Shown in pieces: positions 4,680-59,446 of a stretch of DNA of 64,000 nucleotides. Made by a program: the position numbers and the translations under genes. Each line of letters starts with the position of its first letter. Within the stretch, counting starts at the first letter, position 1. Location: positions 1-64,000 of the forward strand of contig JAAEZM010000012.1 in the NCBI GenBank assembly GCA_018222865.1, written 5' to 3'. The notes below the pieces were generated by a model. It saw only the letters and a program-made list of their open reading frames with translations. It was not told where the DNA came from and made no database searches. The DNA comes from Alphaproteobacteria bacterium. GTDB lineage: Bacteria; Pseudomonadota; Alphaproteobacteria; Caulobacterales; Maricaulaceae.

Positions 4680-4870
4680 CTTTCGCAGCCCCCTATTGCG
4701 CTGCCGGAGCGTGTTCAGATTGCGGCACTTGCCCGGCAAACGAGCATAACCATAATTTATTGTCAGCCATGCGAAGAAAACCGCCGACGTGACAGAGGTG
4801 TGACGTTGACTTTGGGCGGCGCAAACATAGAGTCCGCCTCGTTCGCAGGCGGAGTCTGATGAACACACTT
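4680..4870. promoter_or_regulatory. Divergent intergenic region upstream of the glycine riboswitch
   Basis: About 190 bases separate the start of the membrane-protein gene from the first aptamer. It must hold the promoters for both directions. It contains a GAGTCCGCCTCGTTCGCAGGCGGAGTC dyad-like stretch (around 4831-4857) just before the first aptamer; I see no confident -35/-10 pair and no gene. Confidence 0.35.
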
Positions 4871-5066
4871 CTCGCGGGAGAGACCGGCGAATAAGCCGGC
4901 GCCGAAGGCGCAACCGCCCCGGAAACGCTCAGGCCAAGGGACCGCGAGAAAGATAGAACGCTGGAAAGTGGGTGCGTGCGTTGTGCGAGACACCCCACCG
5001 ACGGAGCAAGCGGGCCGGGTCCAAACCGGTGGTGCGGAATCTCTCAGGTTATCGGGACAGCGGGGG
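4871..5066 (+). promoter_or_regulatory. Tandem glycine riboswitch upstream of gcvT
   Basis: Two glycine aptamers in tandem. Aptamer 1 runs from about 4871 to 4948: CTCGCGG at 4871-4877 pairs with CCGCGAG at 4942-4948 (P1), and inside lie the family's GGGAGAGACCGGC, GCCGAAGG-GCAA and CTCAGGCCAAGGGACCG elements. A linker of about 25-30 bases follows. Aptamer 2 (about 4977-5066) repeats the pattern with CGACGGAGCAAGC and CTCTCAGGTTATCGGGACAG. Glycine binding normally switches on expression of the glycine cleavage genes, which follow immediately. A short hairpin AGGCG-ATA-CGCCT (5078-5090) lies between the aptamers and the AGGGGAC ribosome site and may belong to the expression platform. Confidence 0.93.
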
Positions 5067-54955: not shown

Positions 54956-55423
54956 ATGACCTTTAATCTTGGACTGACCGACGAGCAACGCAGCACGATG
55001 GCAGACGCGGTTACGCGCGTTCTCGCTGATACCTATGCTCTTTATTTCAAAACCCATGCCTATCACTGGAATGTAACGGGCCCGCGCTTTCACGATCTTC
55101 ATGCCCTGTTTGAGCTTCAGTATAACGAGCTGTGGACTGCAACCGATGAGATCGCTGAACGGGTTCGTGCGCTCGGTTTTCCAGCGCCCAATTCCTATGC
55201 GGCGATGAGTGAAGCGGCGAGCTTGCCCGCCAGCGCGGACGCAACCGACGCAGATGCGATGGTCGCAGACCTGCTCAAAGGGCATGAAGCTGTCGTAGCA
55301 ACGATCCGCAAGGGTCTGGATCTCGCTGCCGAGAATGGCGATGAGGCGACTGCGGATATCCTCACCCCGCGCCTCACGGTCCATGAAAAAACTGCCTGGA
55401 TGTTGCGCGCGACATTGGGCTAG
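54956..55423 (+). CDS. dps: Dps family DNA-binding ferritin-like protein
   Basis: Dps dodecamers store iron with hydrogen peroxide and protect DNA. The 155-residue protein has the four-helix bundle with the ferroxidase ligands in THAYHWNVTG and FHDLHALFELQYNELW, DEIAERVRALG, and the end HEKTAWMLRATLG. There is no lysine-rich N-terminal tail, so direct DNA binding may be weak. ATG 54956 has GGGAG seven bases upstream; an earlier in-frame ATG at 54911 lacks one. Followed by an intrinsic terminator. Confidence 0.94.
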   Translation: MTFNLGLTDEQRSTMADAVTRVLADTYALYFKTHAYHWNVTGPRFHDLHALFELQYNELWTATDEIAERVRALGFPAPNSYAAMSEAASLPASADATDADAMVADLLKGHEAVVATIRKGLDLAAENGDEATADILTPRLTVHEKTAWMLRATLG

Positions 55424-55457: not shown

Positions 55458-55486
55458 AGGCCCCGGCTCGTCCGGGGCTTTTTTTA
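55458..55486 (+). terminator. Intrinsic terminator of dps
   Basis: GCCCCGG (55460-55466) pairs with CCGGGGC (55472-55478) around CTCGT, extended by A-T/G-T pairs at the base and followed by a TTTTTTT tract. It lies 36 bases after the dps stop. Confidence 0.92.
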
Positions 55487-55504
55487 TTGCGTAGCGATCA
55501 ACGC

Positions 55505-55626
55505 AAAAAAAACGCCGGATCCAGGGGAGGAAGGATCCGGCGCCAATTCAGCATTCCCTCATAAAGGGGAGGAGAGAGAGAATGCGTAAACTCGAGGGTA
55601 CGTTGCGGCACCGCCGCGCTGTATGC
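55505..55626 (-). ncRNA. Candidate anti-Shine-Dalgarno small RNA (cuckoo-RNA-like)
   Basis: Read on the minus strand, two hairpins follow one another. Hairpin 1 (55585-55551) pairs GCAUUCUCUC with GAGGGAAUGC, one G-U pair included, and exposes the loop UCUCCUCCCCUUUAU. Hairpin 2 (55542-55513) is a perfect 10-bp stem, CGCCGGAUCC/GGAUCCGGCG, with loop UUCCUCCCCU and an eight-U tail (55512-55505): an intrinsic terminator. Both loops carry CCUCCCC, complementary to ribosome-binding sites, as in the 'cuckoo' RNAs of alphaproteobacteria. A GCGGC-GGU-GCCGC hairpin lies upstream, and TATAGT (55634-55629) is a candidate -10 box; the 5' end is a guess. Confidence 0.68.
55513..55542 (-). terminator. Intrinsic terminator with UUCCUCCCCU loop
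   Basis: Perfect 10-bp stem CGCCGGATCC/GGATCCGGCG with a ten-base loop, followed on the minus strand by eight T. It is the 3' end of the proposed small RNA. It could also end the lysR transcript, whose stop codon lies about 200 bases upstream, but that distance is long. Confidence 0.9.
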
Positions 55627-55746
55627 AGACTATATGCTGGATTATTGTGCGGTGCGGAAGAGCGATATGCGCAAACATGCTATGCAAAAATGATGGGTAT
55701 CATTTTGTCTCATATGCGCGAGCGGTGAACTGGCCCTAAAGCCCAG

Positions 55747-56640
55747 TCAGGTCTGCCAGATTCGGGCCTGGTCGATCAGGAAATCTCGGAAGGCCACGAT
55801 GCGTCGCGAACCGCGCAGCTCGGAGGGGTATACAAAATAGATGTCAAAATCTGGCCCTCTCAATTCTGGCAGAACCTGACGTAATTCCGGATTTTCACGA
55901 GCGACATAATCTGGCAGGCCGGCAATCCCCATTCCAGCCTGAACGGTCCGGGCGACGCCATAAATTGTGTTGATCTCGATGACCGCTGGGCGCGGGCCCT
56001 GCTCGTCTGTTCGGCCAACCTTCGCCGCCCAGTCGAGACCTGGAATCGGTGCCAGCTGTGGCGGGCCGTAGTGAATAATGGGGTGGTGATCGAGATCTTC
56101 AGCGCTTTGCGGCTCGCCATACTTATCGAGATAGGCGTGGCTGGCATAAAGGTGTTGCTGCACGCTCATCAGCTTGCGCTGTACCAGATCATTCTGCGTC
56201 GAGGCCCAGGGACGGATGCCGACTTCGGCCTCAAGACCGGCCAGATCCAGCTCGTGATCATCCAGCATTAGTCGAATACGTATGCCGGGATAGCTGCGAT
56301 TGAAGTCCGTCAGACGCGGGGCCAGCCACATGGCACCCATGGCTGTCGGGGCCGTAACTTTAAGATCGCCCGAAGGCTCGTCACGTGCGTCATGCACCTG
56401 CGCCTCGGCAAGTGCGGCCTTTGTCGCAATATCGCTCGAGGCCTCGTAAAGAATATTGCCTGGCTCGGTCGGGATCAGCCCGCGCGCATGGCGATGAAAC
56501 AGCGTGACGCCGAGATCATCCTCAAGAGCCGCTATCTGTCGGCTTACGGCTGACTGGGAAATCCCCAGCATTGTCGCCGCCTTCGTCAGAGACCCCGCCT
56601 GCGCGGCCGCGTGGAAGGTCTTCAGCTTGTCCCAATCCAT
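55747..56640 (-). CDS. LysR-family transcriptional regulator
   Basis: A 297-residue regulator. The N-terminal winged helix is WDKLKTFHAAAQAGSLTKAA followed by LGISQSAVSRQIAALEDDLG; a C-terminal type 2 periplasmic-binding-like effector domain starts near residue 90. The target is unknown; neighbours are dps and the small RNA candidate on one side and an aldo/keto reductase on the other, all transcribed leftward except dps. The start ATG 56640 matches the usual family N-terminus. Confidence 0.93.
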   Translation of the reverse strand: MDWDKLKTFHAAAQAGSLTKAATMLGISQSAVSRQIAALEDDLGVTLFHRHARGLIPTEPGNILYEASSDIATKAALAEAQVHDARDEPSGDLKVTAPTAMGAMWLAPRLTDFNRSYPGIRIRLMLDDHELDLAGLEAEVGIRPWASTQNDLVQRKLMSVQQHLYASHAYLDKYGEPQSAEDLDHHPIIHYGPPQLAPIPGLDWAAKVGRTDEQGPRPAVIEINTIYGVARTVQAGMGIAGLPDYVARENPELRQVLPELRGPDFDIYFVYPSELRGSRRIVAFRDFLIDQARIWQT

Positions 56641-58498: not shown

Positions 58499-59446
58499 TT
58501 ATTCGAGGCCGGCCAGATAGCGTTCTGCGTCCAGGGCCGCCATGCAGCCCATTCCAGCCGCAGTGACCGCCTGGCGGTAGATATCATCCGTGACGTCACC
58601 AGCGGCATAAACGCCCGGGATGGAGGTTTTTGGCGTGCCAGGCTCGGTAACGAGATAGCCGCCATCCTTGGTTTCAAGCTGATCGACAAAGAGTTCTGTG
58701 GCCGGGGAGTGACCGATAGCGATGAATACGCCGTGGGTGGATCTTTCGGTAATCTCACCGGTCTTTACATTCTTCAGGCGCACGCCCGTAACTGCCGGGA
58801 AGGGCTCTTCCTCGCCGGTGATCTCTTCCAGGACGCTATCCCAGACGACTTCCACCTTGGGATTGTTGAAAAGACGGTCTTGCATGACCTTCTCCGCCCG
58901 CAAGCTGTCGCGGCGGTGGACCAGCGTCACTTTGGAGGCCAGATTTGCCAGGTAGAGCGCTTCTTCAACAGCAGTGTTACCGCCGCCGACCACAACCACT
59001 TCCTTTTCGCGATAGAAGAACCCGTCACAGGTGGCACAGGCAGAGACACCGCCCGTTGAGAACTTCTTTTCGCTTTCCAGGCCCAGCCATTTTGCCTGGG
59101 CGCCGGTCGCGATGATGACACTATCGGCGGTGAAAACTTTACCGCTATCCAGGGTGAGCTTGAAGGGCCGCTGGGAGAGGTCTGCTTTCACGACAAGATC
59201 ATTGATCATCTCCGTGCCGACTTTCTCGGCCTGGTCTTTCATCTGATCCATGAGCCAGGGGCCCTGGACCACATCGGAGAAGCCCGGATAATTCTCGACA
59301 TCCGTTGTGATGGTCAGCTGACCGCCCGGCTGCAAGCCAGAAATCAGAACCGGCTCAAGCATGGCCCGTGCGGCATAAATCGCAGCGGTATAACCGGCCG
59401 CACCAGAGCCGATGATGATCAGGCGCGAATGACGCGTCTCGGACAT
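58499..59446 (-). CDS. trxB: Thioredoxin-disulphide reductase
   Basis: TrxB reduces thioredoxin with NADPH via FAD in the cytosol. The 315-residue protein has the FAD motif LIIIGSGAAGYTAAIYAAR, the redox-active ACATCDGFFYR (CATC), the NADPH motif VVVVGGGNTAVEEALYLA, and the C-terminal GVYAAGDVTDDIYRQAVTAAG. Length is normal. ATG 59446 is preferred over GTG 59461. It provides reducing power that the periplasmic DsbA pair upstream in the window does not use directly. Confidence 0.96.
   Translation of the reverse strand: MSETRHSRLIIIGSGAAGYTAAIYAARAMLEPVLISGLQPGGQLTITTDVENYPGFSDVVQGPWLMDQMKDQAEKVGTEMINDLVVKADLSQRPFKLTLDSGKVFTADSVIIATGAQAKWLGLESEKKFSTGGVSACATCDGFFYREKEVVVVGGGNTAVEEALYLANLASKVTLVHRRDSLRAEKVMQDRLFNNPKVEVVWDSVLEEITGEEEPFPAVTGVRLKNVKTGEITERSTHGVFIAIGHSPATELFVDQLETKDGGYLVTEPGTPKTSIPGVYAAGDVTDDIYRQAVTAAGMGCMAALDAERYLAGLE

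Follow-up and report, generated by a model that had tools for sequence, protein, structure and literature searches.

The window, i.e., the whole 64,000-nucleotide stretch of DNA that was analyzed, contains a predicted small RNA (sRNA) on the minus strand between two convergent genes (Table 1). One of them, lysR, encodes a LysR-type regulator; it lies on the same strand as the sRNA, which begins ~120 nt after it. The other, dps, encodes a Dps/ferritin-like protein that passes the Pfam Ferritin cut-off and scores below the cut-offs of the NCBIfam Dps models. The thioredoxin reductase gene trxB lies upstream of lysR, with two genes, for an aldo-keto reductase and a TetR protein, between them.

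Table 1. Features of the sRNA locus, with positions in the window
Feature	Position	Strand	Basis
dps (Dps/ferritin-like), convergent neighbor	54956..55423	+	Pfam Ferritin over cut-off
dps terminator, hairpin 55460-55478, T run to 55486	55460..55486	+	Sequence; found in part by terminator scan
Predicted sRNA transcript, ~120 nt	55505..55624	-	Start placed 12 nt from first base of -10 hexamer
HP3, intrinsic terminator, perfect 10-bp stem 55542-55533 / 55522-55513	55505..55542	-	
HP2, 10-bp stem 55585-55576 / 55560-55551, exposed loop UCUCCUCCCCUUUAU (55561-55575)	55551..55585	-	
HP1, small 5' hairpin GCGGC/GCCGC	55605..55617	-	Predicted fold
-10-like hexamer CATATA	55631..55636	-	Conserved in genus alignment; fixed spacing to box
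Candidate LsrB/VtlR box GCATAGCATGTTT	55673..55685	-	GCAT starts 49 nt before -10 hexamer (~ -61)
lysR, LysR-type regulator, LsrB/VtlR homologue, no cysteine	55747..56640	-	Pfam LysR domains; PDB relative
trxB, thioredoxin reductase	58499..59443	-	NCBIfam TIGR01292, 410 bits vs cut-off 343

The sRNA is predicted to fold into three hairpins. HP1 has a GGU loop in the predicted fold of the window sequence, and a GC-rich stretch occupies the same place in the genus copies. The stem of HP2 includes one U-G pair. HP3 has the loop UUCCUCCCCU (55523-55532) and ends in eight U (55505-55512). An earlier note on this DNA had placed two minus-strand stem-loops downstream of lysR; both are present in the sequence, and its description of the second as a perfect 10-bp stem followed by eight U is exact. 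For the predicted 120-nt transcript, the folding energy is -48.7 kcal/mol (z -4.7), and none of 200 shuffled sequences was equally stable. Comparison of the two strands gives -40 kcal/mol for the minus strand (z -5.0; 1 of 200 shuffles equally stable) and -32 kcal/mol for the plus strand (z -3.2; 3 of 200). The U-G pair had also been read as a sign of selection on the minus-strand transcript. The pair does exist, but a single pair is weak evidence of strand; the upstream promoter elements described below and the U-run terminator are better evidence. The element had further been described as lying opposite the dps terminator. This is inexact: that terminator forms a hairpin of its own, and 18 nt separate its end from the 3' end of the sRNA. 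The sRNA overlaps neither dps nor the dps terminator.

A covariance model, R1, was built from an alignment of 13 genus sequences and matches the window at 55497-55632. As the earlier note would lead one to expect, the same element is found near dps or lysR in relatives: R1 detects the locus in 18 of the 19 genomes of the genus, 13 of which had gone into the model, the others being G001, G007, G011, G013, and G017. No locus was found by R1 in the remaining genome, G012, which is 65% complete. Outside the genus, seven of 18 genomes of the family (G021, G022, G025, G027, G030, G031, and G032) have a copy accompanied by lysR and/or dps, and named records with copies include Maricaulis, Hyphobacterium, and Woodsholea. 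Not every R1 match is of this kind. Five loci (L192 and L196-L199; E 1.2e-7 to 7.9e-4), from which dps and lysR are both missing, were dropped, and R1 scores in this range are therefore not specific. In the genome of the window (G000), the next-best R1 match reaches only 24.1 bits. A DNA similarity search returned two genus members, G006 and G008, at E ~1e-9; the remaining matches were short, with E >= 0.01.

The stems covary around a nearly invariant CUCCUCCCC loop. For HP2, 94.7% of cells are paired and 22 are double-change cells (22 sequences; 0 of 500 shuffles), and for HP3, 99.4% of cells are paired and the 17 double-change cells fall in two of nine pairs (18 sequences; 0 of 500 shuffles); these controls are indicative only, because the structures were chosen from the same sequences and the sequences are related, and kinship inflates shuffle comparisons. 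The HP2 alignment consists of 22 of the 29 copies used for the box count below, with seven close relatives omitted, and the HP3 alignment of 18 rows. Of the loop motifs singled out by the earlier note, that of HP2 is kept in relatives, nearly fixed though the bases of its stem change. The anti-Shine-Dalgarno (aSD) loop within the terminator is found in Maricaulis, L189, and L095, and is absent from L190, L191, L193-L195, L200, L100, and L102. Conservation, the covarying stems, and the transcript fold all back the reading as an aSD sRNA on the minus strand. We consider a conserved minus-strand aSD sRNA to be well supported; a genuine sRNA gene is very probably present here, and its product is predicted to pair with ribosome-binding sites. 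Part of the genus (L171-L173, L175, L176, L182, L183, L185, L187, and L188) has an additional short hairpin ahead of HP2, whose arms resemble CUCAGA/UCUGAG and whose loop is C-rich.

The surroundings of the sRNA are also conserved. In all 18 genus copies lysR is upstream on the same strand, and in 13 it adjoins the sRNA; in G001, G002, G004, G006, and G008 the gap is ~1.6 kb. Of the 18 genus copies, 16 have dps in the fetched stretch, i.e., all except G001, where the contig ends, and G017. The order trxB - lysR - sRNA - dps - aminotransferase recurs in G009, G018, G025, and G027. In G031, trxB, lysR, and the sRNA are together, with no dps match in the fetched stretch; in G032, the sRNA, dps, and the aminotransferase gene are together, with neither lysR nor trxB in the fetched stretch. 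lysR lies away from both the sRNA and dps in G022, G032, and the genomes of L100 and L102, and no R1 match was found beside the displaced gene in any of them. The loci L283-L286 (G032, G346, G347, and G022) carry LsrB-like genes that have moved off the sRNA-dps locus, and R1 and trxB both gave no match there. In G037, from another family of the order (L229 / L235), a LysR gene, the box GCATAAGTGATCT, and C-rich hairpins are found with convergent dps and aminotransferase genes; R1 has no match at this locus.

Among LysR proteins of solved structure, LsrB of Agrobacterium tumefaciens is the closest to that of the window. Its structure, 9hh1, is the top PDB relative (E 1.9e-80; 273.9 bits, vs 100 for the next). 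Conversely, when the 9hh1 chain was compared with the genome of the window, the window LysR was the best match, with 273.8 bits and 44% identity (second, 105 bits), a comparison of one PDB chain with one genome rather than a genome-to-genome reciprocal test. The two proteins differ in their cysteines. The window LysR has none, like 12 of 14 Maricaulis proteins, and both redox cysteines of A. tumefaciens LsrB, C144 and C273, are Val in the window LysR. The counterpart of C273 is not Cys in any of 45 aligned proteins (14 Maricaulis, 7 other family members, and 24 of 29 from the class), and three family members (L189, L191, and L095) have Cys at the position corresponding to C144. Loss of LsrB C273 is reported to raise peroxide sensitivity (PMC11975290). 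Given the cysteine-free window LysR and the absence of a C273 counterpart from all 45 proteins, peroxide sensing of the kind proposed for LsrB appears unlikely for the Maricaulaceae regulator.

The region upstream of the sRNA has the elements of a promoter at a fixed distance from one another. Of 29 Maricaulaceae copies, 26 (all except L186, L191, and L194) have GCAT[AG] exactly 49 nt ahead of the -10-like hexamer, compared with a mean of 0.065 and a maximum of 1 in 200 shuffles. These 29 copies comprise 25 of the 30 R1 loci and 4 of the 11 named copies, the other named copies being duplicates, near duplicates, or truncated at a contig end. With the hexamer taken as -12 to -7, the start of the box falls at -61. 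For the abcR1 promoter of Sinorhizobium meliloti, the LsrB box is reported at -61 to -49, with the consensus GCAT-N3-TG-N3-T (PMC8844928). This consensus is matched exactly by eight of the 26 boxes and with at most one mismatch by 20; the window box lacks the TG. GCAT-N8-T alone is common in the window (147 observed vs 175 expected). A second GCAT is present 32 nt further upstream in 13 of the 29 copies, and at the class level the spacing from box to hexamer is looser. The 49-nt spacing is also preserved in L190, L193, L100, and L102, from genomes that have their lysR gene at another place, and this is consistent with a regulator acting in trans. Together, neighborhood and promoter suggest that the nearby LysR-type regulator may switch on the sRNA.

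We therefore favor, and regard as likely, the explanation that the locus encodes an LsrB/VtlR-activated aSD sRNA that is a diverged positional counterpart of AbcR1. The sRNA would be an independent, trans-acting RNA of ~120 nt. The LsrB/VtlR-type protein encoded nearby would bind the box near -61 and activate transcription. The C-rich loops would then pair with several mRNAs at their G-rich Shine-Dalgarno sequences, and pairing would lower translation of those mRNAs, as reported for AbcR1 and NfeR1. Both of these sRNAs are reported to be LsrB-activated in S. meliloti (PMC8844928, PMC10746234); an earlier paper reports AbcR in this species as unaffected by LsrB (PMC7486931). In A. tumefaciens, the gene order is given as trxB-vtlR-abcR1-abcR2, and the trxB-vtlR order is called well conserved in the class (PMC7486931). 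The window sRNA holds the place of AbcR1 downstream of such a pair, with the two genes noted above between trxB and lysR. AbcR1/AbcR2 (ar15, RF02345) further share a GCAT near -61, in the window within a candidate box that lacks the consensus TG, an aSD loop in a hairpin, and a similar length (the ar15 model has 112 positions). The window sRNA differs from them in its hairpin sequences, with two CUCCUCCCC-type loops, one of them in the terminator, and the loci differ beyond the RNA, with dps in the window vs arsR at the AbcR1/AbcR2 locus. The sRNA probably acts like AbcR1/NfeR1. In one genome the sRNA occurs as a tandem pair (L094 2876-2998 and 3143-3263, i.e., G010 contig C187, 8521-8643 and 8256-8376), recalling tandem abcR1-abcR2.

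The earlier note had instead likened the layout to the cuckoo-type sRNAs. On a rival reading of this kind, the sRNA would belong to the cuckoo/CcsR or ar14 aSD family and would be induced by a stress sigma factor, independently of LysR. Indeed, ar14 and CcsR1 are the two best Rfam matches at the locus over full models, and the three-hairpin aSD layout is like that of NfeR1. However, the covariance search does not bear out membership: the scores of 38.6 bits for ar14 (cut-off 58.8) and 30.1 bits for CcsR1 (cut-off 65.3) are far under the gathering cut-offs, none of 61 genomes reaches either cut-off, and other ar14 matches in the same genome score alike, at 38.8 and 35.9 bits. In addition, CcsR1/cuckoo (the CIN1 locus) is reported to be associated with a DUF1127 gene (PMC10253847), and DUF1127 (PF06568) had no match in G000, in a search that matched one of 14 control genomes (Escherichia coli). 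Searches of relatives with ar14 and CcsR1 gave many sub-cut-off matches and were not used for membership, because several resemble plain gene terminators. One sub-cut-off ar14 match in the genome of the window (G000:C24:70735-70845, L032; 38.8 bits) is a further C-rich hairpin candidate.

NfeR1 (ar14, RF02344) is also ~120 nt long, with three hairpins and aSD loops, and its promoter is LsrB-activated in S. meliloti; however, each of its three hairpins is reported to carry CCUCCUCCC (PMC10746234), whereas HP1 of the window sRNA has a loop that is not aSD. The CcsR1-4/cuckoo RNAs (RF02791) share CCUCCUCCC-like loops with the window sRNA and differ from it in model score, in the DUF1127 association, and in the weakness of the next R1 match in its genome. 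SisA-D/MmgR (ar8; RF00519 suhB) are reported to have the aSD core UUUCCUCCCU in related Caulobacter, single-stranded rather than in a hairpin loop, with SisA adjoining an N-formyl glutamate amidohydrolase gene (PMC12559287); the window sRNA scores 20.9 bits against a cut-off of 41. The ar15 (AbcR) model had no match in the window up to E 10 and none in 190 class genomes, and control genomes were likewise unmatched. We have placed the sRNA in no family, since ar14 and CcsR1 are sub-cut-off, ar15 is unmatched here as in the controls, and DUF1127 is undetected. Its place and predicted promoter fit an LsrB/VtlR-AbcR locus better than cuckoo/CcsR or ar14, and we consider membership of the latter families improbable.

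A survey of the class suggests that the association between regulator and sRNA may reach beyond the family. Of 289 class genomes, 116 encode a homologue of the window LysR at E <= 1e-80. This fits poorly with a published statement, made with a tree of a few representative species, that LsrB seems to be confined to Rhizobiales (PMC11975290). We surveyed 30 class loci, which are best matches and not a random draw. trxB is within the locus in 25 of the 29 besides the window. In 23 of the 29 loci with downstream sequence, window included (22 of the 28 others), LysR is followed by CUCCC motifs and then a terminator; none of the 29 has this arrangement on the reverse strand, and none has it in a mostly coding stretch upstream. 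CTCCCAGAC is present in 14 of the 28 other loci; the published AbcR M1 motif is CUCCCA (PMC5461406). When 17 of these loci were scanned with cmscan, the SorX model (RF02784) matched after LysR in nine, one of them above the cut-off (47.0 vs 46.6); the window locus had no SorX match up to E 10. The CUCCC/terminator and SorX matches suggest, short of proof, a class-wide unit of LsrB and an aSD sRNA.

The SorX matches also bear on the possibility that the sRNA is derived from a 3' UTR, i.e., released from the lysR mRNA by an RNase, in the way that SorX is reported to derive from the ompR-1 3' UTR (PMC8625941, PMC9438474). The position of the sRNA, on the lysR strand just after the gene, would fit such an origin. 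Conservation of the box and of the -10 hexamer that precede the sRNA argues against it, as do the four family genomes in which lysR is elsewhere. So does the ~1.6-kb gap in G002, G004, G006, and G008, where the longest intervening ORF is on the opposite strand; shorter same-strand ORFs overlap that ORF in three of these genomes. We consider this origin quite unlikely.

A role in cis, in which the RNA would regulate dps as an antisense transcript or by terminator interference, is less likely still. dps is a conserved neighbor of the sRNA, also where lysR has moved away (G022 and G032), and G037 has lysR and dps on either side of the corresponding place. However, the sRNA overlaps neither dps nor its terminator, and in G031 it is flanked by lysR and trxB, with no dps match. 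The earlier note had suggested a stress-related function from the proximity to dps; the synteny stands, but nothing beyond synteny speaks for regulation or a stress response. Least probable of all is that the site serves only to terminate lysR and dps, its C-rich loops being due to chance and no regulatory RNA being made, since although it lies between convergent genes and R1 matches elsewhere at E 1e-7 to 1e-3 include apparent plain gene terminators, two hairpins covary around a nearly unchanged loop, dps has its own terminator, and the promoter elements are conserved.

Activation of an AbcR1-like aSD sRNA by an LsrB/VtlR-type regulator would have a wider meaning. If true, LsrB/VtlR-sRNA control, which has been described in Rhizobiales, extends to free-living marine Alphaproteobacteria. 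Such a regulator outside Rhizobiales, without a counterpart of LsrB C273, would have a signal different from peroxide acting through that residue. We also raise the idea, which could prove right or wrong with equal ease, that an LsrB/VtlR-type regulator and an aSD sRNA under a GCAT box form an old alphaproteobacterial module. In such a module, the regulator, the box, and the aSD loops would persist while the RNA body was remodeled until the RNAs of different lineages (AbcR1, SorX-like RNAs, and the window sRNA) came to be assigned to unrelated families. The locus would then be a test case for aSD sRNAs that keep regulator and seed while their bodies turn over. Among the matches listed in the open-licence literature, no title or abstract concerns this sRNA or LsrB-linked sRNAs in Maricaulales.

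Predicted targets were sought as GGGGAGGA-N2-9-ATG. This pattern occurs at 13 places in the genome of the window, one of which is the complement of the sRNA itself, vs five for the reversed control, and at 18 places in G009, vs none for the reversed control. No orthologue is common to the predicted target lists of these two genomes. Seven of the candidate target ORFs in the genome of the window are longer than 100 amino acids, and their N-terminal stretches are hydrophobic; several ORFs that follow a control pattern (9 places) are likewise hydrophobic at the start. Pfam assigns six of the seven ORFs to S10, ExbD, TonB_C, Lactamase_B, M28, and PhoD. Elsewhere in the window, a glycine riboswitch at 4865-4954 on the plus strand (74.8 bits) is the sole Rfam match over its gathering score.
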